Assembly: GCF_019649055.1 (NCBI RefSeq)
Contig: NW_026570247.1
Location: 124,001 to 188,000, forward strand
Length of the DNA: 64,000 nucleotides
Origin: Paramacrobiotus metropolitanus
Lineage: Eukaryota; Tardigrada; Eutardigrada; Parachela; Macrobiotidae
Direction: 5' to 3'
Numbering within the stretch: position 1 is the stretch's first letter; each line of letters begins with the position of its first letter. Below, in pieces: positions 4,298-63,157 of the stretch. The translations under genes were made by a program, and so were the position numbers. The notes under the pieces are model-generated. The model had not been told where the DNA came from. It saw only the letters and a list, made by a program, of their open reading frames with translations, and did not search any database.

Positions 4298-4397
4298 TAT
4301 TAAGTCTGTGGATCTCTCTTAACTCTTTACATTGCATTTAAAATGTTTTTGTTCGACCAGACTTGAAGTCCCCTTGGGGTTGTCTGCTCTTCCGCAG

Positions 4398-36984: not shown

Positions 36985-39705
36985 ATGTCGAATCCCCGAG
37001 AAGATCAGTACGCGAGAAAGTTCAACACGGACTATTCTCGGCGTGCGAACATGACCGGGAAGTACTCACTTCGGTACGCCGGTCAAGACAAAAGTCAGCC
37101 GTCCTCAACCGACTCGACTAAGTCGGCCGAAGCAAGGGAGAAGCGCAACGAGCGGATCCTCCTTGCCGACTCGAATCCGACTTCGGATGACAGTTTCGAG
37201 GACGCCCGGGATAAAACATTCCTGGAAGCCCCAGCTGACACAGCAGCCCCGTCCCACCCGACCAAGGGGGATGTGGAACAGCTGCAAGCTGAGACCACAT
37301 TGTCTCATACCGACCTGGAGTCGAGCTCACACAGAGCTCAAGGCTCGGTAGTCACAAAGACAACCGAGCTCGGACGGCATTCACCCAACAGGACGGAAGA
37401 GGTGCCGAAGCCGACTTCGCCCAACATGGACGTTCCGACTAACCAAGTCGGAAGGAAATCGCCGACCACACAGGCCGAGCGAAAATCTCCGACTAAGCAA
37501 GTCGGTGAACAACAACCTACGGTGGCCGACCAACAAATGGTCGACCAGCCGCCGGCAAAAGAAGTCGGTCAACAGCAGGCCGACCTGCCACAAACTCACG
37601 GGGCCGAACAACCGACTTCGACCGGAATGGATAAGCCGACAACAGAAGTCGGCAACGTCCAACCGACCACACAGGTCGGAAGGATTTCACCGACCTCGAA
37701 AGTCGGAGAAAAGGAAGTCGGCAACAAGCAACCGACTTCCCTGGAACGGCAACCAACCGACACAAAGTCGGATGCGGCCGTCCAGCCGACTAAACTACCG
37801 ATCGGAACAGAAGATTCCGAGGTACCGCCACAGAGCGGCCCTCACCCAGCTGGATCGCCGACCAGCATACCGGCGCCCACCGAACGGATCATTTCACCGT
37901 TGAGCCGACCTTCGCCAACTGGAAGCGAGTCGACTCGAGTAACTGAAGCTCAACAAACGGTGAAGTCGACTAAGGCGACACAAAGTCGACCTGTCGACCT
38001 GAAAATCAGATCGTCACCACCGATGTTCGAAACGGGCGAACTCTGTAGTACTCCGTCACCGACAAACGAAGTCTTTGACGCAACAACAGCGTCAAGACCG
38101 AATAGTGCGGACGGATTCTTCACGATGCCACTGGGGTCCAACAAGGACGACCTCCCTCATCAGGCCACTTCACTCGAATATACGGCCGAGAAGTGGATAG
38201 CGGCAACACCGCCCGAAAGGATCGTAGACGTCGACCTACTCCGCTCGAGATGCCGTAGACTGATCACTCAGATCGCTTTGGCAGACAGAATTATCGACTC
38301 GGCGGGAAAATCGCTCCGAAACTCGGAAGATACCCATCGGCTCGAACGAAGCAAATGGGAACGCGAAATGGCCGACGCCAACAAAGGCATCGCCATCCAA
38401 CAACGGGAAATCGACCGGCTGAATGCCATATTGAAGCGTACCGACCAACCGTGTCGGCACGACATCGACGAAGCCACTACACTTAAGGGCATGTTGGATC
38501 GATCTATGGATGCGGTCCACGAGTTAAACCAAGAACTCGCCGAAGCGAACAAAGCGCTTGAAGAAGCCCAGAAAGACCTGGCCGATGTACAAACTGCATT
38601 GGTCGAGTCGGAGCAGGCAGCCGGAGCGTTCCACCAGCAATTTAACACGGCCAACGAAGAGGCCGAGGTCTATCGAAACGAAGTCGATAGATATGTGGTG
38701 GAATTGAAGAAGGCCGATGACGAGATCGACCGCCTAACGCACAGAGTTGACGAGCTCGAGTCGGAAATCGAACTTGTCTTCACCAGAATGGGACGACGGT
38801 TCATCGATGAGAACGCTCGGGACATGGGCTTTCCTAACCAAAGGACGGCCGATGTCGACCTAGTGGAAGCAAACGCTCAGCTAGCCGACCAGGTCCATGG
38901 ACTGAACAAAGTCCTTAAGGAGGAACAAAAACTCCGAGCCCAATTGGAATACAACTTGAACGAGGCCCAAAAGGTAAACGAGGCGCAACACAGCCGCATC
39001 CTTTACCTGGAGGCCCGTGAAACCGAGCTGTACGAAGTCGGCGAACAAGCCGCCCGCAACCTCACGGAAATGATGAGGCAAATGGACGAGATGGACACCG
39101 AGACACGGTGCCTGAGGGAGGAAAAGAGACACCTGGAACAAAGCCAGGTCGAACTTACCTCACACCTGGAACAAAGCCAGGTCGAACTCCCTTCATACCG
39201 GGAGCAAAGTCGGGCTGAACCTCCTTCATACCGGACGTCCATGGCACAGGATCAACAGCCGTCACGAACAATCAGTGACATCCTGTGGGGAATTAACCCG
39301 ACTCAAGAAATGGTGAAGAAGGAGAACAATACCTCCTACTTCGTCGGAGTCATAACCACTGACCCGAGTGTGGGAACAATCCCACAGCCACCAACAGTAC
39401 CGAGTGCTCCGGAACCGGAACACAATACGTCGACCGCGGTACCACGAGTACCAACGTCGAACGTGCCGACGACGACGTCGGCCGGTGCATACACCAGCAC
39501 CTCGTACGCGACGCGAACAACAATGTACGCGCCGGTACCTAATGCCAGAGGAGACCGGACAACGGATGCCGAACGACACCAATCCAGCCACCACGACCTG
39601 GCATGGAGGCATATCGCCCACCACGGACGAACTCCAACCCAAACTTCCTCCGCCAGAACCCGCAGTTCGACTCGGAACGCGGGCGAGCTCGGTCATTCAA
39701 CATGA
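36985..39705 (+). CDS. Element 2 ORF A, coiled-coil protein
   Basis: A 906-residue ORF from ATG 36985 (MSNPREDQYARKF) to TGA 39703-39705. Residues about 130-260 are a run of short PT-x-QVG and PT-x-EVG repeats, the protein reading of CCGACCACACAGGTCGG-type hairpins. Residues about 415-755 form a long coiled coil rich in E, L, A and Q (QIALADRIIDSAGK, LNQELAEANKALEEAQKDLA, LNKVLKEEQKLRAQLEYN), followed by two copies of LEQSQVEL. The end is Thr/Pro-rich. No known domain is recognised; a structural or Gag-partner role is inferred from the position before Gag and the homologous place of ORF1 in element 1. Its stop codon overlaps the Gag start as ATGA (39702-39705). Confidence 0.8.
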   Translation: MSNPREDQYARKFNTDYSRRANMTGKYSLRYAGQDKSQPSSTDSTKSAEAREKRNERILLADSNPTSDDSFEDARDKTFLEAPADTAAPSHPTKGDVEQLQAETTLSHTDLESSSHRAQGSVVTKTTELGRHSPNRTEEVPKPTSPNMDVPTNQVGRKSPTTQAERKSPTKQVGEQQPTVADQQMVDQPPAKEVGQQQADLPQTHGAEQPTSTGMDKPTTEVGNVQPTTQVGRISPTSKVGEKEVGNKQPTSLERQPTDTKSDAAVQPTKLPIGTEDSEVPPQSGPHPAGSPTSIPAPTERIISPLSRPSPTGSESTRVTEAQQTVKSTKATQSRPVDLKIRSSPPMFETGELCSTPSPTNEVFDATTASRPNSADGFFTMPLGSNKDDLPHQATSLEYTAEKWIAATPPERIVDVDLLRSRCRRLITQIALADRIIDSAGKSLRNSEDTHRLERSKWEREMADANKGIAIQQREIDRLNAILKRTDQPCRHDIDEATTLKGMLDRSMDAVHELNQELAEANKALEEAQKDLADVQTALVESEQAAGAFHQQFNTANEEAEVYRNEVDRYVVELKKADDEIDRLTHRVDELESEIELVFTRMGRRFIDENARDMGFPNQRTADVDLVEANAQLADQVHGLNKVLKEEQKLRAQLEYNLNEAQKVNEAQHSRILYLEARETELYEVGEQAARNLTEMMRQMDEMDTETRCLREEKRHLEQSQVELTSHLEQSQVELPSYREQSRAEPPSYRTSMAQDQQPSRTISDILWGINPTQEMVKKENNTSYFVGVITTDPSVGTIPQPPTVPSAPEPEHNTSTAVPRVPTSNVPTTTSAGAYTSTSYATRTTMYAPVPNARGDRTTDAERHQSSHHDLAWRHIAHHGRTPTQTSSARTRSSTRNAGELGHST
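37433..37679 (+). repeat. CCGAC/GTCGG hairpins in ORF A
   Basis: Four clear stems: TTCCGACT-AACCA-AGTCGGAA (37433-37453), CCGACT-AAGCA-AGTCGG (37489-37505), GCCGAC-AACAGAA-GTCGGC (37635-37653) and CCGACC-ACACA-GGTCGG (37663-37679). The last stem pair switches between T-A and C-G together on both sides. Confidence 0.85.
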
Positions 39706-41593
39706 CTGACCAGCAGCAGAGCGGACGAAATGGAGAGGATAGCTCCGACCAACAAGGCCGGAGGCCTCCATACCGACCTACACAAGGTCAGATGCCGGCT
39801 CAGGGAACACAGCCCGACCGGTACGGAAGAGTCTACGACCAGCCAAGTGGATTCTACCCGCAGGCGCCGAGACAAAATCGAGCGCCACCTCCACCGCAGA
39901 ATCAGTACGGAGGACAGCCACAACAGCCTCGTCACCCAGACCAGGCCCGGTATCCGCAACAGGACGGATACGATGGGTACGACGGCGAAGCCTACCCACA
40001 AGGAGCATACGAGGACCAACAAGGTCACATGCCATACGCTAACCCGCCACCTGCCCCGGCTGCACAACAAGCTGCGCCGGCTGCGATTCCTCTCGGACAG
40101 GACCCGACACACGTCGCCCTTATACGTGCAATGACCCACGGACGTCGGCAACCCTTACCGCCGTTCGATGGCGACCACACTAAACTTCAGGGGTGGCTCA
40201 AACAGATCCGAAGCCTGTATCGTCAAGCCCAACGTTGGTACGAAGACGATCAGACCTTCATGTCCGACTTGATAGCCGAACTGGACGGCCAAGCGAAAGA
40301 ATGGCATACTCTCGAAGCCGCCGGAGAACCACTCGGCGGATGGCCAGTCAACTTATGGCTGACCAAATTCGAGCAGCGATTTGCGGACAAGAACAAAGAA
40401 GTCAACATGATATCCCGAATTAACAAACGGATATTCCGTTTCGGTGAAGAAACGCCGGAACAATACTACGACGCGATGATGTTCATGAAGTCCCAAGTCC
40501 CAACCATCACCGATAAGATAATCCTGTACCATCTCAAGGAGAACATCCATGAGCCCAAATTAAGGGAGGCCCTGGAAATCAGGATGCCGTCAACGCCGAT
40601 CGAGTTCCGCGACTACCTGCGGGACTTCGTTAACGGCAAGGAAATGTACGAGGTGCGCAAGTCACGCGACGGTGACTATGCCAGAGTCCGGGCAGCAACA
40701 CCTGCACCTGCTTTGGCTCCACCTCCGGCGATACCGCAACAGACCGGATATCAGCCCCACATGATGCCGGGATATCAGACTCCGACGGCACAGTACGGAC
40801 AACTAAGCCCGGCTCCGACGCCACCGGTGCAACAAGCACCAGTCCAGCAACAGACTTGGGCAGGCGCGGCAGCAGCAAACCTGAATCCCCGGCACCTGGA
40901 GTTGGAGCCCCCGTTAACAACTACGGCGGCCCAGGTTATAGCCCGGGTGGTAACCAAAACAACACAGGTTTTGGTTACGGACAGAATTTGAACCAGGGGT
41001 ACTCCGCTTACGGACAGTATCCACCACAAGGATACGGCGGCGGAGGTTATGGTCGCGGAAGAGGACGCGGCGGCGGGAATCGCGGCCGTGGGAACTTCCC
41101 TAACCGCGGCGGAGGCGGCAACCAACAAGGGAACCGACCTCCCCAGGCACAACAAAGTGCTCGGCAAGGGACAACGTATGTCGACAAGATGGAGACAGCC
41201 TTCTTCCAGTGGACGAAGGACAAGACCTTCCGGTGCAGGCACTGCATGTTCAACAACCATGACGAGTCGCGCTGCATCTATGGCTCGGACAACAATCCGA
41301 ACCTTCGGTGGTACGACGACTGGTACCGCCGATACTCGACGAATGGCCCGGTTGGCTCGGCTAATTCTTTCTGGAAGGACATCGTGCCGCCGCCGCGCCA
41401 ACGCCAACAGGCAGGAGGCTCGGGTAGCCCCGGTAACGGAAACCGGTCGCCCGGCCAGTGGAATGGCGGTGGGAACCAACAAGGTTCCCCGGTATACAGA
41501 GAACCGTTACCGCCCCGCCAGTCGCTGAACGCGACGCCGCCCAACAATGGGCCGGCTCGGAATAACTCCCCGGGAAACGCCCAAGGTCGATGA
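39702..41593 (+). CDS. gag: Element 2 Gag, split by a frame break
   Basis: ATG 39702 (MTDQQQSGRNGEDSS) overlaps the ORF A stop by ATGA. A Pro/Gln/Tyr-rich N-terminus leads into the capsid region (about 40140-40660) with LPPFDGDHTKLQGWLK, GQAKEWHTLE, WLTKFEQRFADKNKEV and GEETPEQYYDAM, homologous to element 1 Gag. This frame stops at 40991. The -1 frame, open from before 40856, carries on with a Gly/Tyr/Arg-rich stretch (RGG-like, YGRGRGRGG) and the zinc knuckle CRHCMFNNHDESRC (41234-41275), then NLRWYDDWYRRYSTNGPVG. Element 1 has both parts in one frame, so an indel or sequencing error between about 40830 and 40991 is likelier than programmed shifting. It ends at TGA 41591-41593 overlapping the next ATG. 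Confidence 0.85.
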
Positions 41594-43653
41594 GCTCCGG
41601 TGACTCATTCGACCTCCAACATCCGACCGAACCACCTGACAAGGATAACCCCATTAACCAGCCGCTTACTCCTCGGAACGAGCCGAACTTCGATCAGTTA
41701 CAACAACGGATGGTAACAGCCCTAAACACATTAGGACTGGATTGGATCAGTTGCACGGAGGACGAATTCCTCACGGCACTGTCAGCCCCCACAAAGGAGG
41801 CAGAGGCCGCCCGAACTAAGGCAGCCGAATTTGGTATTTTCATCAACAACGGTGAAATCGAGGTCCGGACCGGAACGCAAGAAATGCCCGGCCAAATCGA
41901 TACAGCGCACCGACAAGACGCTGGAACGTCTAAAGTCCGGAACGAAATGGACTCCCCCATAACGATTGAGGAGGGCACTCAACAGATAGAAGTCATCCTC
42001 CAACTACTCGGACTGAACGAAAACAGTTCAGAGGAGGACTTCGCAAAAGCGATGTCGACCTCCACAAAGGAGGTAGAGACAGCTCGAAAGTTAGCCGCTC
42101 GGCTCGGCGTGTATGTCAACAACGGCACCGTCGAAGCCTGGCCCGGGATACAACAGGTACTCGAGGCAACCGACCCAGCGCATCAACTTGCCGCAGGAAC
42201 GTCGGAGGTCGGAACGCAGGAATTGCCCGACCCAAGCAGCGCAAACAATGCGACTGCGCCGTCCGTCACACAAAGTGACGTAGTACGGCCCGGCCACGGA
42301 AGTTGGACTGGATTGCCGGTGAGGATAAACTCAACCGAGCAGGCCAGACGATGCCCAAGACGCGGAGGACCGGGACGCCGATTCACGCACCGGGGCAACA
42401 GAAACTACCCCAATGTATCACCCGCACGCGCAACGGATAGATACGCTGCGACAATGGCAGCCATCGACCTCACCGAAGAATCGGAAGGAGAAGTCGAAGA
42501 ATGGGAAACAGTCCCATTGGGAGCACAGGTACCCGTTTACTCTCGGCCGGGAGAAGCGGACCTCTTCCAGCCAAAAGAGCGACCAGCCAGAACGATAGCC
42601 AGCTCAAGAACATTCCTCAACATCGACTACATGTGGTCGAAATTGAGACCAACAGACGACTCAATTGAGGAAAGGATATTGGCTCAGGCACAACGGTTCA
42701 GAACCGCCAAATTACCGGGGGACGGAGTAGCTAACCGACCCAAAGTACAGGAAGCGGGAGAAGTCGGAGTCGAACTTACACAAAGTTCAACTCAACAGCC
42801 AGCCGACCACGGACCGGTGTCATTAATCCCCATCAAACCAACGGTGCGGGAAGTGACATTTGAGAAAGGAACCCATAAGAAACCGAAGACAGTTCGAGCT
42901 TGGACACACGAAATCCAAGTCGGATCCACGCCCACACTGGCGATGCTCGATACCGGAGCGGAGACTTCGCTCATCGAACAACGGTTCTGCGAGAGGAACG
43001 GTTTAACGATGCAACCCCTCGGACATTACACCAAAATACTCGGTGTAGGCGGACAAGTCGCCTTCATGGTGTCTCACTGCTGTACTGCACCTGTAACAAT
43101 GCAGGGCTTTACTAGCCACCATACATTCCATGTCCAGCCGACTGAAGCGGACATTCCAGTACTGCTCGGATGCGACTACCTGCATTCGAAGTTCACCTTC
43201 GTCTTAACACCGATCCCTACAACGGAACAACCGGTAGGAACCACGGTAGTGCAGTCTATCCCGATACCAGAGGCATCGGGCAAGTTACCAAGTGAAGCAA
43301 GGATAAGTCGGATTGATCACCCGTCGAACCCTTCGCGAATTTGCCGTGACTGCCGGAACAACAACCGGACTCTGATCGAGGAACTTAAGCTGCACAACGC
43401 CATCGAAGCGTACGAAGGACGGAAAAACACCGGTACATTACGACCGGCCAAGACAGTACTGAAGTCTATCCCGATACCAGAGGCATCCGCTGAAGCGGAT
43501 GCTCGGAACTTAGAAGAGGTACGACAGAGGTACCGAACTTGGTTCTCGGGAGCTCGACACTTTCTCGACCAACGGACGTTGGAGTTGGTGACCACTCTGC
43601 GACAGAACGGAGCGGTAACCTACGGGACGCACAACAAACGTGCGAACCCGTAA
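41590..43653 (+). CDS. Element 2 aspartic protease ORF
   Basis: ATG 41590 overlaps the Gag stop as ATGA. The 687-residue protein has two related N-terminal blocks (residues about 30-100 and 120-200; LNTLGLDWISCTEDEFLTAL and LQLLGLNENSSEEDFAKAM, each followed by KEAEAARTKAAE-like helix and FINNGEIEV/YVNNGTVEA), an internal duplication not usual for such elements. A retropepsin domain follows with active site LDTGAETSLI (Asp 454), a GVGGQVAFMV flap-like strand and VLLGCDYLHSKF. After it come two copies of SIPIPEAS (about residues 555 and 625) encoded by the conserved CCCGATACCAGAGGC box. The frame ends TAA 43651-43653; pol begins 8 bases later. Confidence 0.85.
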   Translation: MSSGDSFDLQHPTEPPDKDNPINQPLTPRNEPNFDQLQQRMVTALNTLGLDWISCTEDEFLTALSAPTKEAEAARTKAAEFGIFINNGEIEVRTGTQEMPGQIDTAHRQDAGTSKVRNEMDSPITIEEGTQQIEVILQLLGLNENSSEEDFAKAMSTSTKEVETARKLAARLGVYVNNGTVEAWPGIQQVLEATDPAHQLAAGTSEVGTQELPDPSSANNATAPSVTQSDVVRPGHGSWTGLPVRINSTEQARRCPRRGGPGRRFTHRGNRNYPNVSPARATDRYAATMAAIDLTEESEGEVEEWETVPLGAQVPVYSRPGEADLFQPKERPARTIASSRTFLNIDYMWSKLRPTDDSIEERILAQAQRFRTAKLPGDGVANRPKVQEAGEVGVELTQSSTQQPADHGPVSLIPIKPTVREVTFEKGTHKKPKTVRAWTHEIQVGSTPTLAMLDTGAETSLIEQRFCERNGLTMQPLGHYTKILGVGGQVAFMVSHCCTAPVTMQGFTSHHTFHVQPTEADIPVLLGCDYLHSKFTFVLTPIPTTEQPVGTTVVQSIPIPEASGKLPSEARISRIDHPSNPSRICRDCRNNNRTLIEELKLHNAIEAYEGRKNTGTLRPAKTVLKSIPIPEASAEADARNLEEVRQRYRTWFSGARHFLDQRTLELVTTLRQNGAVTYGTHNKRANP
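43254..43280 (+). other. Conserved CCCGATACCAGAGGC box (element 2, copy 1)
   Basis: CCCGAT (43260-43265) pairs with ATCGGG (43275-43280) around ACCAGAGGC, exactly as at 12529-12549 in element 1. Confidence 0.75.
43464..43502 (+). other. Conserved box (element 2, copy 2) joined to TGAA hairpin
   Basis: The box TATCCCGATACCAGAGGCAT recurs, but its second half enters a different stem: GCATCCGC (43483-43490), TGAA, GCGGATGC (43495-43502), a perfect 8-bp hairpin like the one in the LTR at 35357. Confidence 0.75.
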
Positions 43654-43661
43654 TCGCCCTC

Positions 43662-46600
43662 ATGAACGATATAGAGAACGAAGCTTGGGAATGGGAAGAC
43701 GAACGAATTCCGATCCATCGACAGTACATGGAATACGGACTCCCCGTCCCACGGCCTTTAGAAATGCCCTGCCAGGAACTAGGCTTTCAACTCTTTGCCT
43801 ACATGCAGCGAGTTCAGTTGCACGGAGAATCGTCAACGACCGCATTCTGGCAACGGTATGGCGAGGACACCGCTATAACGCGATACGTACCCGACCCATT
43901 ACCGCCAATAGAAGAGCATACTCCGACCACAGTGCACTTCGCGAGTAGCCCACCGAAACCCCAGGACGACGTAATCCTGGAAGAAACTGATAAACCTTAT
44001 CAGTGTACCATCTGCAAGGATAACATTGACGGAGTGGTACGGGCCATAAAGGCTCATCACGACCTGACTTGGTCGAACGACAGACCGTCGTCACCGTCGC
44101 CTCCGCAACAGGAACGGAAGGTAGACCGTTTTCGGAAGCCCCGACCGGCGGGCATCCGATGGCTAAGTAACATGGACTTACAGCCAGCCGACCTCGAGAA
44201 TCAAGTCGAAGCGAGTCGACCAACCCAGCAGAAGGACATGGCCGACCGAGCCGAACCGACCACACAGGTCGAAGTCGGTAATACACCGCAAGTCGGAAAT
44301 GGCAACACGCCAGAAGTCGACCTCGAAAACGGATCGGAAATCGAATTCGAGGACTACCAGTCGGACGACTCGGATATACAAAGTACGAGTGATTCGGCGG
44401 ACACGGACTCTGATAACCGACCTTCAGAAGAATCTGAGGAAGAAGACGACGAAGAATTCGATCCGTCAGTCCGACATTGCAAGACGGACAAACCGAGCAG
44501 AAACGACTCGGACGATTCGTCATCGGAGGACGAAGAACCGACCTACGAAGTACGGCTAACTACAGCATTGCGAACTATAGTTCACACAGAATTTATAGTT
44601 GAGCAACCGGAACAAACCGAACAACCTAAGCCAGTCGACTCCGAACAACAGGAGGAACTCGATCAACTTAAGGCTTTGTGGGAATTCGGGGGAGGTAAAT
44701 CGGAGGAAGACGATTTCCGACCTCCAACCATAGTCGTCCAGCAGTTGTCAACCGAACAACCGACCTTGGCTAACTTAACCGACCAACAGCATTTCAACAC
44801 ATGGAAGGCACGAGTCGCCAAAGTAACGACGATTGACGAGTTGGACCTGGACAACAAATGCCCAGAAGTCCACCACCTAAAACTGGACTCCCACATAGAG
44901 ACGAAAGCGTTAGACCGACAAGTCGTCTTCAACAGCGAACGAGTCTCTCTCCCACCATGGTCAACATGTTCGATCAAGGCACGGACGGCCAAACCAATGG
45001 ATCCGAGAAGACCAATTTACTTCTCTACCCTACAACGGGTAGTCCGACCTATTCGGCCAATCGAAGCCAAGATCGACATCCGACCGACAAACGACACGGA
45101 CTGGATAAACATTCAGAATACGACTCACCAAACGAAGGTGCTGAAGAAAGGCGTTCGACTCGGACATATGCAGTATGCCGACGTTTACGAACCGGAAATC
45201 AACAACGCGTTCGTCGAATGGGAACTCCCACACAGAGTGGCGAAGACTTGGCCCCCAACTCGGGAAGTGAAGCCAAAACCCCAGTTCGAAGTTTTCGAGG
45301 CAACAGGAGTTCGATCTCAACGGAAAGTCAAACTCATCCCTCGAGCCGTAACTATGGTAGAAGTCGTCCTGGACGTACCGGTATCCAAGGACCAAAAACT
45401 GATGTACCTCGGTGAATCCGACCCTAAACGAGACGGAGTCGAATTCATGGACGGCGTAACCAAGCACGACGGGAAACGATTCACCGTCATGGTAGCAAGC
45501 CACACCCATCGAGAGGTAACCTTACGCAAAGGTGCCCCGATGGGTCGAGCTGAAGCATTCACAATGATGACGGACGACCAGAATGTCGAAGAAGCACGAA
45601 TCAACACGGCTGAGGTAGAAACGGAAGACGCCGAATCCCAGGAGGAGCGAAGAAGAATCATCGACTCCATGAACTTCGGTAAAAACTTAACCGACGAGCA
45701 ACTAGCCAAACTGAAGGCTGTTGCATGGGATTACCGGACCGTATTTCCGACCTCGAAGAAACCTTATGGAGACGTCAAAGGGGTAATACATACCATTGAT
45801 GTCCAAGGGGCGCAGCCGATTAAGATGAACCCCACCAGGACAAGCTGGAAGGGACGTGAATTCATCCAGAAACACGTGCAGGAGATGCTCGACCAAGGAG
45901 TCATCGAACCGTCATCGGCTGCATGGAGCTTCCCCGTCGTCTTAGCCGCAAAACTGAACGGAGACGGCACGGTAGGAACACGCTTCTGCATCAACTATAT
46001 CAAGTTGAATGCCGTTACAAAGAAGAATAACTATCCACTACCGAACCCGGACGAGCTGCTGGACCGATGTGCCGGAATGGAATACTACGGCAAGGTAGAT
46101 TGTCAGTCCGGCTTCTGGCAAATTCCCATGGATGAACAATCCAAGGACTACACGACCTTCGTTACACCCGAAGGCATGTGGCGATTTAACCGTATGCCGT
46201 TTGGAGTCTGCAACGGACCAGCAACCTTCCAAATGCATATGGATAAAATCACGGCATCAGCTCGGAAGAAGGGTGTGTTCGCCTATATTGACGATATCAT
46301 CTTCTTCGGCAAAACGTTCGAAGACTTCCTAGAGGCTTTCCGAGCGACTCTCGAATGCCTCCGCGATGCTGGATTTACGGTCAAACCCTCCAAATGCGAG
46401 ATCGGAACGGACAGACTGCTGTTCCTCGGACACGTCCTTAGTAAGAACGGAGTCCAGACCGACGATGAGAAAGTGGCCTGTATCGCAGAACAAAGCTGCC
46501 CGAGAACCGAACGGCAACTTAGGTCGTTCCTCGGACTGGCCAACTATTACCGGAAGTTCATTAAAGGATACGCCCAAAAGACATCAAAAATGTACGAGCT

Positions 46601-54260: not shown

Positions 54261-56156
54261 AAAATCCTCGAGGCTAACCCACAAAGGGTTCAGCCGACCT
54301 CCACCCAACCGCAGCCGACTGCTTCGCAACAACCGCTAGAGCCCACATTGGCAGAACAGCGAACAGCTCTTAACGACCAATTGGCGCGTACACAGAGGAT
54401 TGCCGACAGCCTGCAACGTCAAGTTGATAATATGGACGGAACAGATCCGACCATCCGTAACATTCGGACGGCAATCGAGGACCAAATTAGAGTCTCCCAG
54501 ATGCATATTCAAGACCTGCAAGTCGACCTCGAACTCTTACGGCGAAAGGAACTCGAACAACATCGGAAGAAAGCGGAACAACGCGCATCCGGTTCGCAAC
54601 AGCCGAACACTTCGAGTCAGCCGACCTCGACAACAGCTCGGACTAACCCCCAACCGACTCCGACAGCAGGCTTGATTCAACCGAAACCGATGGAAATGGC
54701 CGACCGGCCCATGTCTCCAGCTACAGAAGCTCGGATCATGGAAGCCATACCGGACACTGACGAATTGCCGAGTACGGTCGCGCCACATATAGTCAAACTA
54801 TTGGCTAGAGTAGCGGAACTCATCACAGAGATGAGAGCCCGCAGAAACTTTTGCGTTGACAATAGCCAAGAAGCAAATGACTTGGATGGAGACATCCTAG
54901 CTTGGGGAAATAACGCTCGGTTCATACGACGACTCTGTCATCCGGACGCCCCCCAAACGACCAGGACTCGACAACACTTAATTCGCACCACATCTTGGTT
55001 GGAAACAAGGGTGAACGAGTACGAGGAAGAGAAGGAACGGGACAAAGAACAGGAATCGACCAGCGTGGTAACGAATGCCATGGTTGAAGGTCGATCGTCT
55101 CGGATCACAAAGATCCAGACGGCTCGGAAACCGAATTTTGATTCAGTCCGACTTCCCCCTCCTACCCCACCAGCCAAACCCGACCTTGAATGGATGAAAG
55201 GAGTTAACACACAGTTACTGCGAGCGGACGCCGTCATCGTCGAACTGCGTAAAATGATGGACGAAACCGACCAGCGGAGTCCACAGTATTGTCAGATCGA
55301 CATTAACCTCGGACACTTGGAGAATAACACCAAGGAAGCCCGATTCATCCTCCGACCAACAACAGTCTGGTCGGCTAAGAATCAGGAACGGCTACAGACA
55401 TTGGTAGCCATGATTCAGTCCTTCGTAGACGACTTCTACAAACGGAAGGAAGCAGAGGAACAGAGGAAATCGAAGAGACCGCCATCAGCCAAAAAGCCAA
55501 AGGTACAACCTGTTAAACCGACACAGGTAGTTTCACCGGTGAGTCACCAAGACGAGCCGATGGACGAAGTGCCAGTACCTCCACTCGAAGGCGACGATGA
55601 ACCAATGGATACTTTGGAGGAAGTCGGAACAGTCGGAACAACAGAAGTTAGCCGATCTAAACCCACGGAACGACCTACAACGTTACCTGGGCTCTCACAA
55701 AGAGAACCGCAGAGTGAACGAACACCTGATGGTCGACTTATCCTCCAACCAGGTGGATCGAACTCGCCAAAATTCGTACGGAAGCCAAAATCGACGAGTA
55801 ACGTCGAAGAGCACGGACCACGCAGGCGGCTCTTCCCGTCGAAGTCGCCATCACCAGTCAGGACCAAGGAACAACTCTTGGAAATCCTGAAGGCGGCTCC
55901 GTCTTCCTTACCACCGACCGAAGAGAAGCCGAGCCCGTCACGGAAAGTGATGGGAGCGCAAGCCTTGTTTACACCGGCCGTCCACAAGAAGTTAGTCGGC
56001 CAAGCTAAGACGCTGGATCTTCAACGAATACTCTACGAAGCACAACTTCAAGGAGGTATTCGAGATCGGACCATGACAGAAGAGCAACAGACTCAGATGG
56101 CCCAGAAGATCCATGCTACAATTCAGGACAGAGACAAGTTCTTAGAAGGTTGGTGA
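54261..56156 (+). CDS. Accessory frame, part 4 (TAG 3 to TGA)
   Basis: About 630 codons in the same frame, first ATG 54432. A coiled coil at the start (RTALNDQLARTQRIADSLQR, then VDLELLRRKELEQHRKK) continues that of part 3, which supports reading through TAG 3. Two further helical blocks follow (HIVKLLARVAELITEMRARR; MKGVNTQLLRADAVIVELRK), then a Pro/Ser/Glu-rich linker and a C-terminal helix ending DKFLEGW at TGA 56154-56156. The next frame (-1) overlaps this end by a few bases. Confidence 0.7.
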   Translation, partial: KILEANPQRVQPTSTQPQPTASQQPLEPTLAEQRTALNDQLARTQRIADSLQRQVDNMDGTDPTIRNIRTAIEDQIRVSQMHIQDLQVDLELLRRKELEQHRKKAEQRASGSQQPNTSSQPTSTTARTNPQPTPTAGLIQPKPMEMADRPMSPATEARIMEAIPDTDELPSTVAPHIVKLLARVAELITEMRARRNFCVDNSQEANDLDGDILAWGNNARFIRRLCHPDAPQTTRTRQHLIRTTSWLETRVNEYEEEKERDKEQESTSVVTNAMVEGRSSRITKIQTARKPNFDSVRLPPPTPPAKPDLEWMKGVNTQLLRADAVIVELRKMMDETDQRSPQYCQIDINLGHLENNTKEARFILRPTTVWSAKNQERLQTLVAMIQSFVDDFYKRKEAEEQRKSKRPPSAKKPKVQPVKPTQVVSPVSHQDEPMDEVPVPPLEGDDEPMDTLEEVGTVGTTEVSRSKPTERPTTLPGLSQREPQSERTPDGRLILQPGGSNSPKFVRKPKSTSNVEEHGPRRRLFPSKSPSPVRTKEQLLEILKAAPSSLPPTEEKPSPSRKVMGAQALFTPAVHKKLVGQAKTLDLQRILYEAQLQGGIRDRTMTEEQQTQMAQKIHATIQDRDKFLEGW

Positions 56157-57151
56157 CTCTAAGATGCGGAAAGCAGGAGCTACGACAACTCCCGCTGGAT
56201 ACCAACATGATCCAGACGATTCAACGTCTCCGTAATCCGAGCATCAACCCGGGTGCTTACACACTGGAAATCCAACCTCGGCCCGGAGAAGAGGTGACCG
56301 AGAAGATTCCGATAACAATGTCGGACAGTAGTGAAGAAGAGGAGAACGCGGACGACAATGACTCCGATGACTCCACTAAACAAAAGGCAGCGGGACCAGC
56401 GAAGGGATCTACACCGAAACGCGGCAGATCACCGGTAAAACAAATCTCGCCGACTCGATCAGCATCTCAGCCGACTAAGCTGCCAAGCCAACCGACGATT
56501 GAGAAACCACTTAGGTTCTCACCTCGGAATACCCCCACGAAACCGAAGAAAACCGAGGAAGAAATGGACACAACATCCCCCTCGGAAGCGCGAGTCGGAA
56601 TTACGGTCGAAACGTCACCACAAAGGGACGAACCGACCTCCATTCACTCCGGTCCACGTCTGACCATAGACGAGTCTCGAACGAACGAGTCGACGACTGA
56701 GTTGGCCAACATACCAACCAAACGGAGTACGGTAAAGGAGAAACCACCTCAGGACTCGTCGCGGGAATTTCATGACGACCTAGCCTTACAACATGTAAAG
56801 GACTTAACGAGGTCGGAACAGGATGCCTGCATCGACATGGCATACCCGGAGGATAGGGAACTCTGGCACTCGTTGAGAATCCGACGTGCTAGTATAGCTG
56901 GAAACATCACGGAAGCTGGGCGTGACCACGACCGACTTACCGAGAAGATGGCCGACGTGATGAAACGTATGGGAGAACATTACCGAACGGAAAGGAGCCG
57001 ACCTAAAGCCCTACAAGCGGCTACACCGACTCCACGCAAAGATACCGCCCCGGAACCCAAGTCGACCAAGAAGACGGCACAGCCATCCGTCGTTAAAATG
57101 AAAGTTCCCCTCCCGACCAGACAACCTTCCGTTCAGATCGACGACGATTAG
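56150..57151 (+). CDS. Accessory frame, part 5 (to TAG 4)
   Basis: About 333 codons in a new frame that begins without ATG (TTG 56150; first ATG 56207), suggesting that it is a continuation of part 4 after an indel near 56150 rather than an independent gene. The first 50 residues (LRCGKQELRQLPLDTNMIQT) look like the end of a globular domain. A Ser/Glu/Asp tract (SDSSEEEENADDNDSDDS) and basic Pro-rich linker follow, then a helical part (LALQHVKDLTRSEQDACIDM). It reaches TAG 57149-57151 and remains open beyond. Confidence 0.65.
   Translation: MVTLRCGKQELRQLPLDTNMIQTIQRLRNPSINPGAYTLEIQPRPGEEVTEKIPITMSDSSEEEENADDNDSDDSTKQKAAGPAKGSTPKRGRSPVKQISPTRSASQPTKLPSQPTIEKPLRFSPRNTPTKPKKTEEEMDTTSPSEARVGITVETSPQRDEPTSIHSGPRLTIDESRTNESTTELANIPTKRSTVKEKPPQDSSREFHDDLALQHVKDLTRSEQDACIDMAYPEDRELWHSLRIRRASIAGNITEAGRDHDRLTEKMADVMKRMGEHYRTERSRPKALQAATPTPRKDTAPEPKSTKKTAQPSVVKMKVPLPTRQPSVQIDDD
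57149..57151 (+). other. In-frame TAG 4
   Basis: GAC GAT TAG GAC ATA; frame open before (to 56150) and after (to TGA 59867). The Lys/Pro-rich composition is the same on both sides. Confidence 0.85.
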
Positions 57152-59869
57152 GACATAAAGGTCATCAACTCGGCCAACTCCGCGAAATCCCACAAGGACA
57201 AACGGAAGGCCAAGAAGGAAGCAGCAAAACAGTCTGCCAAGCCGCAACCAACGGAAGTTCTGAAGAATTCAGTCAAGTCGGAAGCCAAGGAGCCGGCCAA
57301 ACCGAAGTCGGACTCCACGGTTAAGACGCCGAAGCCCAACCCGGCCAAGCGGCATAAGTCATCTGACGACTTGGACATTTCGGATGCCGGCCCACAAAGG
57401 ACCGAGCAGAAGGAGAAGGCTCAGGAACCGCACGACAAGGAGGCGGTCGAACGGAAATTTAAAGAAGTCATGGAACGAGCAGGCACAAAGCCGGCTAAGA
57501 CTTCAGGAGGTCGGCTACGGAACCCACCAAGACAGCCGACTCCGCCTGAACAACCTCAGCCTTCAACATCCAAGCAACAGCCAGATGCAGAATCCGACCA
57601 GGCCTCGGACATCGAAGAAAAGGATTCAATCTCCGACCACGGAGAGGGCGATCCTTACGAAGGATATAAAGGCGACCTGAAGGAAATGTTCGACCACGGA
57701 GCGGACACCGACGAATCACAGTGGCCAGCCCCGGACGATGTACGCGAACGCCTTCCGGACGAACAGCCGGACGATCCGGTCGACACGCTAATTCGTAAAG
57801 TCCGAGTACACGTCGAGGTCGTCCGTAGCATTCGGAACGCCAAGGAAAACGCTAAGGACATTTACCAGTCCTTAGTACAAGATTTGTCGAACAACATACA
57901 AGTTGAAGGCGAAACCGGAAAATGGTTAACGCATCAATTCATGATGCAGATCGTCGCTTGGACCCTCGATTATGGACTAGCGGTCGCCGTTCATCGACAA
58001 TGGGGACGGATGGCTGAACTTATCCAACCGGACCTCATCAAGTCACTTAAAAGTGCAGCGGCAAGAAACGCGGACGACACACCGACTAGAATTGCACGGT
58101 GCATCGGATACATTCGGAACCCTCGCGGATCGAACTTGGTCCAAATTGCCCGTGTATATAACGTGATGTACATGGACAAGAAGGGCAACATTGATGAAAT
58201 CATCAGCCATATCGAGGGCCGAGTAGAAGAATTGGTTACCGCACATACCCTTCAGACGACAAATGCGGAACGCGATGTCCCTGTTCGGTATACCGTGCCG
58301 AACTTCATACCGGAACAACATCGGCGTGAATTCAACCTCCGGATGTCCTATGTCAACACAGACAAGCCTCCGGCAGGCACGGAACCGACCAAAGAATACA
58401 GCGACTCCAACGAACAACCGTCGGAAGACGCAGCCCAATTGCTGCATATAGCTCGTACGGCTGCACAGTCGTCAAAAAGACGAGTCCAAGCCCTAACCAG
58501 ACCTCGAGCACCGCACGAACCGACAACATATGTCGGCACGGCATCGGCTCCGGCGGGACGAGCAAGTACGGCCAAACCAACTCGGAGTGCGAAAGGACGG
58601 TTTATACCGAAGGACGTACAGTCGCTTCCACCGCCCTCGCCGATGGAGATTTCGCCGGAACCGGAAGACTCCACCCAACAGAAGGGAAAGTCCAAGTCGA
58701 CCAAGACAAAGTCGACTAAGCCGGCAAAGAAAAAGGAACCAAAGTCGTCCGAGCTGATCTCGTCATCCGAGGAAGAAACCGAAGATGACGATGACGACGA
58801 GGATTTCCAAACACCTGGAAATGGCTCGCCCAGGGACGACGATGACGATGACGACGGAAACGGTAGACCTCCACCACCGTCGAACTCGGCACCTCAACAG
58901 CAGGCCGAACCGGAGATACCTGATAAACAACCGGAAGAAAAGGATAGCGGCGACAAGGCCGACGATTCCAAGAGTAACGAGGATGATGGCGGAGTATACG
59001 TTCCCCGTCAGTACGGTAAACGAGTACCACTGACGCCCGACTCCGACCACCAGCCACTTCGCTCGGACTTCCATGACGACATGATAGAAGTCCTACCAGA
59101 CGACATTCCCCCATTGGTCAACGTTAGGTTGAAGTACACCGGCATTAAATCGGCCTCGAAACCCAAGCCGAGCGTCTCGGAATATGACGCCGGGTGGATG
59201 TACACATTCGCCGCCCTGAAGGCCTTGGCTACACGTGGACCAAAGTTCGCCACACCAAGGATCGCCTTCAAACTCCTCCAACACTGGAAGGTAGATGAGA
59301 CAGGCGATTGGCGACAACTTAGCCAGAACAACGTACGACATTACTGCGACCTAGGATACCATGCTGGGAAGCTGATACGTACATACACCAGCGGAAAGCG
59401 GATGTACTACGAGTTCCCACCGGCTAAGAAAGACCCGGCTCCTTCAACATATGAAGGATGGATACACGCCATTGAAGCGCGCATGGAAATGTCCTGGCAC
59501 CCCGACGGACTTACCCGCGGAGAAATACTCCACCAACTCATAGCGCGGTTTGAGTTCCAGTGGACATCAGCCGAACCGCAGTTGGTCGACCCTAAATACA
59601 AGGCTAAACCGGACACAGTCGCCGGACGGAAGAAGTACTCCCTGGATGACGAACTAGAATTCGTCATATCGAAGGCGCTCCACCAACAACGATTCGCCAC
59701 AAATACCGATAAAACCCAAGGCGGTCAACGGTTTATCGCCTTAAACCCGTCAACCCACCGTTATGGACATTTACCGAAGGAACGACCTACCTCGGCACAA
59801 TCGACCGAGTTGGCCGATTCGCGCCAAGCAAGTCGGCTCGGGTCGCCAGAAGTACCCACACGGGAATGA
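57152..59869 (+). CDS. Accessory frame, part 6, two unknown globular domains
   Basis: About 905 codons to TGA 59867-59869, in the same frame as part 5; first ATG 57470. A basic Lys/Ala/Pro N-terminus is followed by a helical domain (about 57770-58350: TLIRKVRVHVEVVRSIRNAK, MQIVAWTLDYGLAVAVHRQW, RCIGYIRNPRGSNLVQIARV). A disordered acidic/basic middle holds SSEEETEDDDDDEDF and DDDDDDDGNG. The last domain (about 59070-59720) has DAGWMYTFAALKALATRG, RIAFKLLQHWKVDETGDWRQ and a KRMYYEFPP strand, with a helix-helix-hairpin feel that could be a winged-helix nucleic-acid binder; this is only an impression. No homologue is recognised and element 1 lacks it. Confidence 0.7.
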   Translation, partial: DIKVINSANSAKSHKDKRKAKKEAAKQSAKPQPTEVLKNSVKSEAKEPAKPKSDSTVKTPKPNPAKRHKSSDDLDISDAGPQRTEQKEKAQEPHDKEAVERKFKEVMERAGTKPAKTSGGRLRNPPRQPTPPEQPQPSTSKQQPDAESDQASDIEEKDSISDHGEGDPYEGYKGDLKEMFDHGADTDESQWPAPDDVRERLPDEQPDDPVDTLIRKVRVHVEVVRSIRNAKENAKDIYQSLVQDLSNNIQVEGETGKWLTHQFMMQIVAWTLDYGLAVAVHRQWGRMAELIQPDLIKSLKSAAARNADDTPTRIARCIGYIRNPRGSNLVQIARVYNVMYMDKKGNIDEIISHIEGRVEELVTAHTLQTTNAERDVPVRYTVPNFIPEQHRREFNLRMSYVNTDKPPAGTEPTKEYSDSNEQPSEDAAQLLHIARTAAQSSKRRVQALTRPRAPHEPTTYVGTASAPAGRASTAKPTRSAKGRFIPKDVQSLPPPSPMEISPEPEDSTQQKGKSKSTKTKSTKPAKKKEPKSSELISSSEEETEDDDDDEDFQTPGNGSPRDDDDDDDGNGRPPPPSNSAPQQQAEPEIPDKQPEEKDSGDKADDSKSNEDDGGVYVPRQYGKRVPLTPDSDHQPLRSDFHDDMIEVLPDDIPPLVNVRLKYTGIKSASKPKPSVSEYDAGWMYTFAALKALATRGPKFATPRIAFKLLQHWKVDETGDWRQLSQNNVRHYCDLGYHAGKLIRTYTSGKRMYYEFPPAKKDPAPSTYEGWIHAIEARMEMSWHPDGLTRGEILHQLIARFEFQWTSAEPQLVDPKYKAKPDTVAGRKKYSLDDELEFVISKALHQQRFATNTDKTQGGQRFIALNPSTHRYGHLPKERPTSAQSTELADSRQASRLGSPEVPTRE

Positions 59870-60085
59870 GGAAACGCAGGAAGCGTTGGGAGAGAGGCTT
59901 AACCGACCTCCTCCCATTGACACCACGTAGGCGTCATCGACCAACAGAAGTCGACTTACCTCATTAGACGACCACAAAGGCGTCTTGGACCAGTTCGAGA
60001 ACCGACCTGGCCCGACCGTAGTAACTATAGGGTGTAAATTATAGGATGCAACCGAGAAACGGTTTGCTGACTTTTGTTTTGACAG

Positions 60086-62281
60086 ACTCGTACAGAGGAG
60101 CCCCGAACGGAAGCCTTTAAGGTGGACTGCCAACAGTGCATGGATAATGCGACGAGGGACAACAACAGAATGCCCTGCGCGCTGTGTATCGTATCCTTCA
60201 CGAACGAACGAATTTCCGGCACCGGAGCGCAACACCGAGCTCAGGCAGCGGCACTCTACCTTAACGTTGTCGCTGGTAACCTGAGTGCATACCGGTACCT
60301 GGCCGGCAGAGAGTACCTGATCAATCAGCTGGAGTCATACGAACAGGACAATCTGGCCACAATTCAGCGACAACGAGCTCGCGACCCGAGATGGGAAGAA
60401 ACTCGACCACCAGTCTTAACAAATAGGCTGTTCGAGTATCGCCAGATGCTGGACTTACAGCGTCAACTTGAGGACCAGAAGAAGATAAAGGAGGTCGATA
60501 GGAAGATCGCCACAATGCGAGTCCATCCACCACCGACTGATTACGAACCGGAAATAAAGATTCGGGTACAGACACCCACACAGGGTCTCCCGACAGCCGG
60601 AGAACTGATCCCCACTATACGTGATGTTTTCGTCGGAGATCCGAACCGACCGATCACGGGCGCATCCATAACGATGATGATGAATATGCCGGACGGAACT
60701 CAACAGCCAGTCACCTTTACACCGGCAACTCAGGAACAGTCGATGGCAATCCCACACAGGGCAACGCCAGTGGTCACACAGGCCCGTCCAACTGTTTCCC
60801 AGCAGATTCCCCAACAAGGAACTCGGACTCAACCGGCGGCTCAACAACAGCAGCGCCGATCCAGCAAGAATCTTGCAGGATATGATCTTCGACACCGGAT
60901 AGGCCCAGTTGATCTTCGAGATAGAATCGAAGCGCAACGAGCCGTTATCCGGGAAGCGGGAAAGGAGCCAACCAGAGCTCCACCAGGAAAACGCACTGGA
61001 TCTGGAGAAACAGGAATCGGACTTACGGTTGACTTAACAAATAAGTCGAAACGTAACTTTATCCCACCCGAACAGCAGATGGAAGCTCAACAAGCGGAAC
61101 CGGCGGCAGAAGTCCAAGCCGAACCAGCGGCTCAACAGGAGCAGATGGACGTGGATGTAGCGGACCAGATGGCACAACTGCCACATGTGGAAGTGCCGAT
61201 CCGAGAAGACCCTCGCTATGATCGAGCTCGACAACAAGGAATCGAGGTCGTCATGCTACACCCCACTGAACGGACGAACCACATTATGAACGTCATGAAC
61301 TACGAGGAACGTTACCGACCACAAATTTGGCGGATGGTAGAAAACCTTCGTCAATTCCTCGTCCGATCCGGATATCAGATGCTGCTCGAACAACACCAGT
61401 GGCGAGCCGACTTCAACATGAACGCGCACACAGCGCCGAATGTTGAACACCCGTACACCAGATCGAACGCGTTGCCGTCGATGACCGATCCGGTCTTGCT
61501 GAATGTACCATTGTACAGCCCGGATGGAACACGTGCGAGCCAACTAGGAGCTCGGGAATACTCCCATGACGAGTTGGAGAGTGTTGCCCAATTCGTCATC
61601 ACGGACGCCCACCCAGCATTCGTGATCACCGCGGCTCGGGCAGCACTGGATCTTACCCAGCATCTCCCAGAAGGTGAAGTCGATATGGCCCAGGACGGAG
61701 TCACGGCATTCCTGCGATTCATCTTCGCAGCTCGACTTGGCAATTACTTTTGCCATTACACCCTGTACGGACTGTACTACAACAAAGCGATACCAGCGGC
61801 TGTGGAAACCCTCGTGGCCCAACTCGGCACACCGATGAGAAGTGTCATCCTAGCCGTCTGGATGCGCGACTTGCTGTACACCCACGAACGGTATGCGACA
61901 AAGTATGCCTTCCGTGAGGATCACATAGATCCCAGCGACGACGCGACCAGATTTATTAGCTGGTATCGACAGAAGAAGACTTTGCCTAGTGGATTTAACT
62001 CATCCCCCTACGAACCTTGGATGTCGGATGACATAGCACCCGGCGCACAACCGTACGCGCTGCGGCTTCGCAAACAGGCGGCCAGGGAATCGAGGAGGGG
62101 CAGAGCGGAACGCCCAGGCCAGGAAACAGATGAGACCGACGAGATGTCTCAACGGAGCGGCCCGGCGACTTGTAAACCTAGGGACCCGAATATACGGCCA
62201 CATAACCGACCTGGCCCGGACGATGACGAAGAAGAAGATTACTTCGGCGGCGATAAACCCGTCGAAGTTCCACTTAGCTAA
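60086..62281 (+). CDS. Last large ORF, CX2C-X12-CX2C protein of element 2
   Basis: The frame is open from 60083; no ATG occurs until 60140, inside the Cys motif, whereas element 1 has an ATG 12 codons before its first Cys, so the start codon may be lost or non-standard. The Cys pattern CQQC-X12-CALC (60128-60187) equals that of element 1 at 16828. A coiled-coil-like helix follows (LFEYRQMLDLQRQLEDQKKI), then a Gln/Ala-rich linker and a globular C-terminal domain (about residues 390-640 from 60122) with MNVMNYEERYRPQIWRMVEN, HDELESVAQFVITDAHPAF, LRFIFAARLGNYFCHYTLYG and WMRDLLYTHERYATKY. The tail is acidic and ends at TAA 62279-62281. Function unknown. Confidence 0.75.
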   Translation, partial: TRTEEPRTEAFKVDCQQCMDNATRDNNRMPCALCIVSFTNERISGTGAQHRAQAAALYLNVVAGNLSAYRYLAGREYLINQLESYEQDNLATIQRQRARDPRWEETRPPVLTNRLFEYRQMLDLQRQLEDQKKIKEVDRKIATMRVHPPPTDYEPEIKIRVQTPTQGLPTAGELIPTIRDVFVGDPNRPITGASITMMMNMPDGTQQPVTFTPATQEQSMAIPHRATPVVTQARPTVSQQIPQQGTRTQPAAQQQQRRSSKNLAGYDLRHRIGPVDLRDRIEAQRAVIREAGKEPTRAPPGKRTGSGETGIGLTVDLTNKSKRNFIPPEQQMEAQQAEPAAEVQAEPAAQQEQMDVDVADQMAQLPHVEVPIREDPRYDRARQQGIEVVMLHPTERTNHIMNVMNYEERYRPQIWRMVENLRQFLVRSGYQMLLEQHQWRADFNMNAHTAPNVEHPYTRSNALPSMTDPVLLNVPLYSPDGTRASQLGAREYSHDELESVAQFVITDAHPAFVITAARAALDLTQHLPEGEVDMAQDGVTAFLRFIFAARLGNYFCHYTLYGLYYNKAIPAAVETLVAQLGTPMRSVILAVWMRDLLYTHERYATKYAFREDHIDPSDDATRFISWYRQKKTLPSGFNSSPYEPWMSDDIAPGAQPYALRLRKQAARESRRGRAERPGQETDETDEMSQRSGPATCKPRDPNIRPHNRPGPDDDEEEDYFGGDKPVEVPLS

Positions 62282-62740
62282 GGTCGAGTTCAAATTGGAA
62301 CTCGATTCCCCACTCGGAATAACTACGGACACTGCCGAGAAACGGCACGGTCGAGAACCGACCTTCCGACTGAGAAACAGTCTAGCTGAGAAACAGCGCC
62401 GTCGAGAACCGACTTCGGAATGGATACTTTTTTTAGTTCTTTCCATGGAAATCGACTAACCATGTACGCGGCGGACGTCAACGACGACTTTGCCAGAAAA
62501 GTTGACTATACAAGTCGGCCGGATTCTTTGGTCGGACCCGGAAACGCGTGGTCAGACCTGGGTATTTCGGTTCTCTCACCGTACCGGTACGTCCTCCAAT
62601 GAATCCCCTGGAACGAACTGGGCAACCGACCCCAGTTCCCCAGCATGGCAAGGACAGATCGTAACCACATCTGCTAACATAGCAGATCGTCAACCACTTC
62701 TGCGACCATCGGAGCCAACAGAAGCCCCAATCCGCGTTAC

Positions 62741-63157
62741 ATGGAGATTACTCCGGCCAACCGACTCCGGAGAAGAAACCGAGAGGATTACGCTAACATG
62801 GCGCGGAACACGTCGCTGCGCGCGTTCCACGCCATGTTTGCCAAGCACCCGTGGCCAACTTCGGAACCGGGTAGCCGAGCAGCCTTCACCATTGTAAACA
62901 GCGGAAAATCCCTCGGCCGAGTCGCCAACAGCGCAGGAATACCCGGATTTGACTATGCGTACTCGAGTCGACCACAAAGGCCGACTTTGTACTTTCCCCA
63001 TAACTTGGAGACATTACGGATACAGTTGCATCAACCGACCACACAGGTCGGTTGTGCAAGCCGACTACACAAGTCGGCTCTGGAAACGATAGCCAGATCG
63101 ACTAACGAAAAATCGATATCATGGCCGACCACACAGGTCGACCATAGCGGCCAATAG
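62741..63157 (+). CDS. Possible small ORF of element 2
   Basis: ATG 62741 opens 138 codons to TAG 63155-63157. The first 85 residues look protein-like (NTSLRAFHAMFAKHPWPTSE, AAFTIVNSGKSLGRV, GFDYAYSSRPQRPTLYFP). The end is the translation of two hairpins (PTTQVG, PTTQVD), so coding and structural signals overlap. No family recognised. Confidence 0.35.
   Translation: MEITPANRLRRRNREDYANMARNTSLRAFHAMFAKHPWPTSEPGSRAAFTIVNSGKSLGRVANSAGIPGFDYAYSSRPQRPTLYFPHNLETLRIQLHQPTTQVGCASRLHKSALETIARSTNEKSISWPTTQVDHSGQ
63026..63145 (+). repeat. Cluster of covarying ACACA-loop hairpins
   Basis: Three stems in 120 bases share the loop ACACA: 63032-63040/63046-63054 (CAACCGACC with GGTCGGTTG, extended 5 more pairs outward to 63026 and 63059 past a bulged T), 63059-63066/63072-63079 (AGCCGACT with AGTCGGCT), and 63121-63130/63136-63145 (ATGGCCGACC with GGTCGACCAT, one mismatch). 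Stem bases differ on both sides together. Confidence 0.9.

Follow-up and report, generated by a model that had tools for sequence, protein, structure and literature searches.

The window analyzed here comprises 64,000 nucleotides (nt) of the Paramacrobiotus metropolitanus genome (contig NW_026570247.1, hereafter C27, positions 124001-188000), and it includes most of a giant long terminal repeat (LTR) retrotransposon of the Ty3/gypsy type, designated element 2, as well as a related LTR element, designated element 1. This study concerns the short hairpins that recur throughout element 2 and share a word in the loop, and their counterparts elsewhere in the genome (169.8 Mb in 533 contigs). Positions are given in window numbering, and all features of element 2, like element 1 itself, are located on the forward strand. 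Element 2 measures 30,753 base pairs (bp), with an interior of approximately 29.9 kb. Its 5' LTR (35243-35680) was recognized by its match to the 3' LTR, which lies outside the window at C27:189558-189995 (65558-65995 in window numbering); the LTRs are 438 bp long each and share 99.3% identity, and the insertion is young. Protease, reverse transcriptase (RT), RNase H and integrase are encoded in that order between the flanking LTRs, which places element 2 in the Ty3/gypsy group.

Open reading frame (ORF) A (36985-39705; 906 amino acids) is rich in hairpins and has no Pfam family above the cut-off. It is followed by a Gag-like ORF with the putative capsid part (39603-40991), 205 amino acids of which match element 1 at 36% identity, and, in a different frame, by a part rich in arginine and glycine (RG-rich; 40856-41593) with a CCHC knuckle (CRHCMFNNHDESRC, 41234-41275). 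The overlap of these two frames (40856-40991) holds a hairpin with an 11-bp stem. The capsid was seen only as a sub-threshold match to DUF4939, the structure model of this Gag is all-helical and of low confidence (predicted local distance difference test, pLDDT, of 47), and a search for Gag homologues yielded only two, both from P. metropolitanus, among the 7993 candidates scored. The Pfam scan assigned an aspartic protease to the ORF at 41590-43653, and RT, RNase H, H2C2 and integrase core domains to pol (43539-48509). The best relatives listed for the pol protein were likewise from P. metropolitanus (65-67% identity in four rows). Among the ORFs scanned, several long ones had no Pfam family above the cut-off, and searches of PDB sequences with ORF A and the ORFs at 52260, 57371 and 60122 gave no match for any of them. 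A clear envelope-like membrane span was not found, because no 19-residue stretch in the 12 listed ORFs exceeded a mean hydropathy of 1.36. In one scan of viral contigs three stretches fitted a pattern, and none of them encodes relatives.

Hairpins of element 2 were scanned over 35681-64000 (28.3 kb) and compared with those of shuffled sequence. With neither stem nor loop fixed, stems of at least 5 bp numbered 354, as compared to 219.6 in shuffles, and the excess was present at loop lengths of 5 to 10 nt and absent at 11 to 15 nt. It reached 53 vs 17.3 for loops of 5 nt (z 8.8) and 43 vs 16.8 for loops of 7 nt (z 6.3). The sequence outside both elements showed little excess (221 hairpins vs 202.5, all loops of 3 to 15 nt included). 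An ACA within a 5- to 9-nt loop on a perfect 6-bp stem occurred in 52 placements vs 4.4 (the largest of 60 shuffles gave 10), nested loops of one hairpin possibly counting twice in this number as they do in the shuffles. The loop profiles read A-C-A-N-A at length 5 and start with A-A-C-A at length 7 and with C-A-A-C-A at length 8; no motif is apparent in hairpin loops of the shuffles. The constant part of these hairpins is thus the loop, being ACANA, AACANNR or NAACANNN over unrelated stems. A first description of the window, made from the letters alone (the sequence-only reading), had instead assigned a common stem, CCGACY/RGTCGG, to ORF A, pol, the accessory frames and the 3' region, with loops that are mostly ACACA, ACAGA or similar to these. 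Its ACA core was borne out, but the loops mostly range from 5 to 9 nt with ACA at a place fixed for each length. The exact stem with a loop of 3 to 9 nt (CCGACY-N3-9-RGTCGG) is present 7 times in the window vs 0.11 in shuffles, namely 5 times in ORF A and twice in the 3' region, and never in pol or the accessory ORFs, where the stems either resemble it in part (CGACC at 44257 and 49095) or bear no relation to it (CATCTGG at 47529). This led us to reject CCGAC as part of the motif. The stem pattern is, moreover, its own reverse complement and so carries no strand.

In the 28.3 kb we counted 92 hairpins with a stem of at least 5 bp and an ACA loop of 4 to 9 nt. Strict words are found in 41 of these (40 in the polarity count given below, for which the loop range used in resolving overlaps differed). 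The strict patterns were chosen after inspection of element 2 and of pieces from other families, which biases their counts in favor of these sequences; loop-length spectra and ACA counts suffer less from this choice. The word-bearing loops occupy all three reading phases, phase 0 being the commonest. Of the 41 strict-word hairpins, 7 are in none of the listed ORFs. When synonymous codons were shuffled in the 12 ORFs (trimmed where they overlap, and with overlapping hairpins collapsed), stems of at least 6 bp with an ACA loop numbered 32 vs 3.8 (largest of 100 shuffles, 10) and stems of at least 5 bp numbered 77 vs 12.8 (largest, 21). Shuffling therefore gives far fewer stems of the kind that the sequence-only reading had picked out. 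Synonymous shuffling and the use of all three phases together rule out the possibility that amino-acid coding is the cause in element 2. The mean pair probability of the 41 strict-word hairpins, folded with 60 nt of context on each side, was 0.93, with 98% above 0.5, as compared to 0.66 for the 220 other hairpins of element 2 and 0.56 for 668 hairpins of shuffled sequence (59% above 0.5). Rfam 15 gave no match in the window at the gathering score.

The hairpins extend from the leader, where one with loop ACACA is located at 36899-36915, to the 3' region. Within ORF A the loop is ACACA at 37323-37339 and 37663-37679, ACAAA at 37527-37543 and 37757-37771, AACAGAA at 37635-37653, AACAACA at 38075-38095, and AACAAAG at 38543-38559, 39131-39149 and 39164-39182, the last of these being a 33-bp tandem copy of the one before it. 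ORF A also contains a hairpin outside the strict words (TTCCGACT/AGTCGGAA, loop AACCA, 37433-37453). Loop ACACA follows at 39775-39789 and CAACAGGA at 39950-39971. The longest hairpin (40950-40978, 11-bp stem, loop AACACAG) is the one in the Gag frame overlap, and it is little changed in 20 further copies. Between this and pol, the loop is ACACA at 41721-41735 and 42772-42788, the latter with a paired change from T-A to C-G in one copy, and ACAAA at 42058-42074 and 42264-42280. In pol we found AACATGG at 44164-44180, with two paired changes in copies, ACACA at 44257-44271 and AACATTA at 47529-47549. Farther downstream, ACAGA is present at 49095-49109, at 52264-52278 (stem CCACC/GGTGG) and at 54819-54835, AACAATA at 49977-49993, ACAAA at 54276-54290 (between ORFs), 55102-55116 and 61031-61047, and ACATA at 58520-58536, 59440-59458 and 61918-61932, along with CAACAAGT at 50839-50856, CAACAGAT at 51994-52011, GAACAACA at 52026-52045, CAACACCA at 52694-52711, GAACAACT at 55864-55881, TAACAATG at 56308-56325 and, between ORFs, CAACAGAA at 59937-59954. 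The 3' region contains three hairpins with loop ACACA (63032-63054, with a 9-bp stem and outside ORFs; 63059-63079, with at most two paired changes in copies; and 63126-63140) and one with loop AACACCA (63504-63520). The four hairpins cited in the sequence-only reading, at 37433-37453 (with T37440 and A37446), 52264-52278, 63032-63054 and 63059-63079, were read correctly.

Selection on the hairpin structure is supported, because stem pairs are conserved and compensatory changes exceed those of controls. Close copies were represented by three copies, part of a fourth (83-87% identity) and one stretch of a 68.7% relative (L029); alignments shorter than 300 bases or touching an LTR were excluded, as were L001-L003 and L012, and one long L029 alignment was kept. 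In this set, 83.7% of 2762 pairs in ACA-loop stems were unchanged vs 71.7% of 151,633 control pairs, and the changed pairs had become another Watson-Crick pair in 69 of 449 cases (15.4%) vs 1720 of 42,893 (4.0%) in the control; each alignment enters these counts in both directions, and the covariation events counted are not independent of one another. The proposal that stem bases change in pairs, and that selection on structure is the reason, thus held up between copies. Between families (64-93% identity, alignments shorter than 150 bases excluded) compensatory changes amounted to 36 of 233 vs 435 of 8885, and with four more pieces (66-88% identity) to 55 of 509 vs 1085 of 17,478. The ACA was retained in 386 of 493 comparisons of hairpin loops and in 2405 of 3674 elsewhere.

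Hairpins of this kind had been considered a property of element 2, but element 1 and other families have them as well, with other loops. Element 1 (7075-20397), whose LTRs share 275 identical bases, has hairpins with NAC triloops, 19 in number vs 1.16 expected, which start at 8577, 9324, 9712, 9796, 9809, 9880, 13064, 13343, 13719, 14123, 14577, 15702, 16006, 16100, 16528, 17194, 17380, 17560 and 18416. Its excess is found at loop length 3 (30 vs 11.5) and, for stems of at least 6 bp, at loop length 12 (13 vs 2.6). Gag is present, with a CCHC knuckle (CSNCWWGNHSNRNC) at 11446, and pol was found neither by a Pfam scan of five ORFs nor by tblastn with the pol of element 2; element 1 looks non-autonomous. 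It also contains tandem arrays at 9623-9978, 14434-14581 and 18444-18910 with units of 42, 14 and 47 nt, and the first and last of these repeat hairpin-forming units. Elsewhere in the window, a separate RT ORF (RVT_1, 1338-3725) is located in an outside stretch without clear hairpin excess. A nest of repeats at 25380-32086 has direct (87-93%) and inverted (75-82%) copies around 25.4-27.3, 29.7-31.1 and 31.3-32.1 kb. The stretches 4390-5352 and 22239-22668 are 78-81% alike and 17.3-17.8 kb apart, and their surroundings are matched as well by the DNA that follows element 2 on its 3' side (L012).

When the genome was searched with the RT, 97 of 1668 candidate places were scored; their identity ranged from 82 to 100%, mostly falling at 94-100% or 82-87%. 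In the corresponding search with Gag, 150 of 690 were scored. A hairpin excess was seen in ten of ten pieces, each of about 5 kb, taken from the region of ORF A and Gag in other copies (z 7.5 in L037, 4.3 in L038, 4.1 in L039, 4.1 in L040, 4.0 in L041, 8.8 in L042, 5.9 in L063, 4.6 in L064, 3.6 in L065 and 3.2 in L066), these pieces not being ten independent families, as L037 and L039 (92.6%) and L040 and L065 (88.4%) are near relatives. The loop words differ considerably among them. ACANA occurs 22 times in element 2 vs 0.22 (6 vs 0.05 and 16 vs 0.17 in its two parts) and at most once in each of seven other pieces. CAAYA is absent from element 2 and is found 8 times in L038 (vs 0.00), 4 times in L040 (vs 0.01) and 3 times in L065 (vs 0.01). 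CACANAA is present 4 times in L041 (0.00 expected), and the 7-nt loops of L042 read AACANNR twice, CACANAA twice and [AG]ACANAA three times. L063 and L064 use the same words as element 2, and L066 has NAC triloops (4 vs 0.44) and 12-nt loops (7 vs 2.61). The knuckle ends in ...NQASC in L038, L040 and L065, all of which have CAAYA, and reads C..C.F.NH in element 2, L063, L064 and L042, all of which have ACA-type loops; other knuckle types are present in element 1, L066, L039 and L041. As far as these sequences go, the pattern is suggestive of a CCHC knuckle and a loop word that go in step.

In three random genomic pieces raw hairpins numbered 45 vs 47.7 (L034), 62 vs 45.3 (L035) and 64 vs 48.0 (L036), and these pieces contain no ACA, CAAYA, CAACC or CACANAA word and one NAC triloop vs 0.98 expected. 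The raw hairpin count alone is therefore not diagnostic, while the loop words are. L029 had 54 hairpins vs 41.2 with almost no ACA word, and the adjoining L033 had 87 vs 91.3; the values for other pieces were 29 vs 26.1 (L001), 43 vs 29.6 (L004), 61 vs 57.4 (L030), 58 vs 48.7 (L031) and 36 vs 45.9 (L032). Over seven families or elements the family loop words occurred 82 times in sense and never in antisense orientation. Of the two settings envisaged in the sequence-only reading, RNA and cruciform DNA, this polarity favors the first and rules out cruciform or other strand-symmetric DNA structure, and the hairpins most likely act in the sense RNA. Mean folding z in 100-nt windows was −1.27 in element 2 (n = 283), −1.34 in element 1 (n = 125) and 0.10 outside (n = 147) for the sense strand, and −1.14, −1.02 and −0.14, respectively, for the antisense strand.

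We hold with confidence that these are selected sense-RNA hairpins that carry a loop word. The sense RNA of the giant elements would bear about three recognition hairpins per kb along nearly the whole interior, with a stem that merely presents the loop and is free in sequence provided that pairing holds, and with a loop that is the recognized part and whose word varies by element family. A repeated site for Gag or an accessory protein, as proposed in the sequence-only reading, is plausible. The putative reader is an element-encoded protein, and most likely the nucleocapsid region of Gag (RG-rich with one CCHC knuckle); in Ty3, packaging of genomic RNA needs the single CCHC finger of Gag (PMC4974528). 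Many weak sites could jointly let Gag select and condense its own 30-kb RNA into particles, and not that of a sister family. Cis sites that act in number are suggested by the free stems, the fixed loop, the single polarity, the family-specific words, the spread over nearly the whole RNA and the retention in element 1; hairpins kept in an element in which no pol was found are what one would expect of a cis signal used in trans. Our favored explanation, in which the hairpins are many dispersed cis sites by which the genomic RNA is recognized, the reader probably being the Gag of the same element and the outcome packaging of its own RNA, is in our judgment about as likely as not. The more specific proposal of a distributed self-identity code, in which a family-specific loop word is set dozens of times through the coding RNA, the nucleocapsid knuckle co-evolves with it and the own RNA is packaged, falls slightly short of that.

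Several observations weigh against Gag-read cis sites or against selected RNA pairing. The correlation of knuckle and word is confounded by shared descent. L037 and L039 have an excess of 12-nt loops (6 vs 2.47 and 7 vs 2.88) and no single clear word, and in L038 the peptide PIG is encoded, in a single reading phase, by 5 of the 8 words, so that a peptide repeat contributes there. Raw hairpin excess was near z 2.9 in two of the three random pieces. A preference for G-U over A-C was absent between close copies (109 of 255, 0.427, vs 0.418 in the control), modest between families (50 of 95, 0.526, vs 0.406) and weak in the larger family set (109 of 235, 0.464, vs 0.400). Among word-bearing 6-bp stems with one mismatch, A-C exceeded G-U in element 2 (10 and 3) and in its copies (33 and 10), as opposed to 2 A-C and 8 G-U in the other five families combined. 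Finally, signals spread in this way are not general in the superfamily, since Ty3 tolerates the loss in cis of most of its interior: nt 429-4979 are dispensable in trans assays and the cis sequences lie at the ends (PMC4974528), whereas the candidate cis sites of element 2 run through the interior.

The same sense-RNA hairpins might be read by a different protein, that is, a product of ORF A or an accessory ORF or a host factor, and serve not packaging but the nuclear export, the stability or the translation of the long RNA with its many ORFs. An RNA with about a dozen ORFs requires some means of expressing them, hairpins are present in ORF A, in Gag and pol and in the accessory frames, and most downstream ORFs scanned lack a Pfam family above the cut-off. 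However, words that differ between families within one genome fit a host reader poorly and nothing singles out an accessory product, and we regard this explanation as unlikely. Less likely still is that a general large-scale RNA structure compacts or shields the 30-kb RNA, with A/C-rich loops because unpaired positions collect A. Element 2 is indeed A-rich and both elements have negative folding z-values as compared to the outside sequence, but loop lengths are fixed and the words positional, these words differ among sister families of similar composition, and hairpin loops of shuffled sequence lack a motif.

The absence of G-U tolerance between close copies, together with the paired changes, is the outcome to be expected if RT changes template inside a hairpin, so that one arm is copied from its partner, which would perfect stems and create covariation without selection. 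Such a mutational origin appears very improbable, as the loop words are wholly different even though identity of the RT piece is 82-100% across the 97 scored places, the word-bearing loops are conserved, and outside stretches, including the one with another RT gene (1338-3725), show no excess. Equally improbable, in our view, is a structure that works in minus-strand complementary DNA (cDNA), or in DNA, while the element is being reverse transcribed or integrated. The fixed polarity fits minus-strand cDNA just as well, and the A-C mismatches that outnumber G-U in element 2 and its copies would be G-T on that strand; on the other side stand the preference for G-U between families and the lower folding z in sense than in antisense (both weak), as well as the polarity that excludes double-stranded and cruciform forms.

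If recognition in the sense RNA by Gag were true, it would hint at how a retroelement RNA of 30 kb is picked out and condensed and at what keeps families within the same cell separate, and the sister families with different words in one genome offer a natural experiment for matching words to Gag proteins. In the literature searched, mostly at abstract level, no LTR element with loop-coded hairpins dispersed along it turned up. Ty3, one of the Ty3/Ty1 elements of yeast, has the same order of RT, RNase H and integrase as element 2 (PMC4974528). Burro, a group of giant gypsy-like LTR elements of planarians, exceeds 30 kb and, like element 2, has additional coding capacity (PMC6431247); by description, its interior is at most 25 kb with one huge polyprotein, whereas the interior of element 2 measures about 29.9 kb, between LTRs of 438 bp, and holds many separate ORFs. 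With the genome-scale ordered RNA structure of RNA viruses element 2 shares a folding energy below that of dinucleotide shuffles along its length, and it differs by positional loop words of fixed length. A further likeness is to the dispersed packaging signals of single-stranded RNA viruses and hepatitis B virus, in which many stem-loops are distributed across the genome (PMC6281560, PMC7612645); weak dispersed signals of this kind are still disputed, the review cited first being by proponents (PMC6281560). Element 2 likewise has stem-loops throughout its genome, with variable stems and a short shared loop motif beyond chance, and these are conserved and covary between relatives. We use this as a working resemblance and claim no membership of that class. 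In element 2 the word is visible from the sequence alone, differs between sister families of one genome and spans 30 kb.

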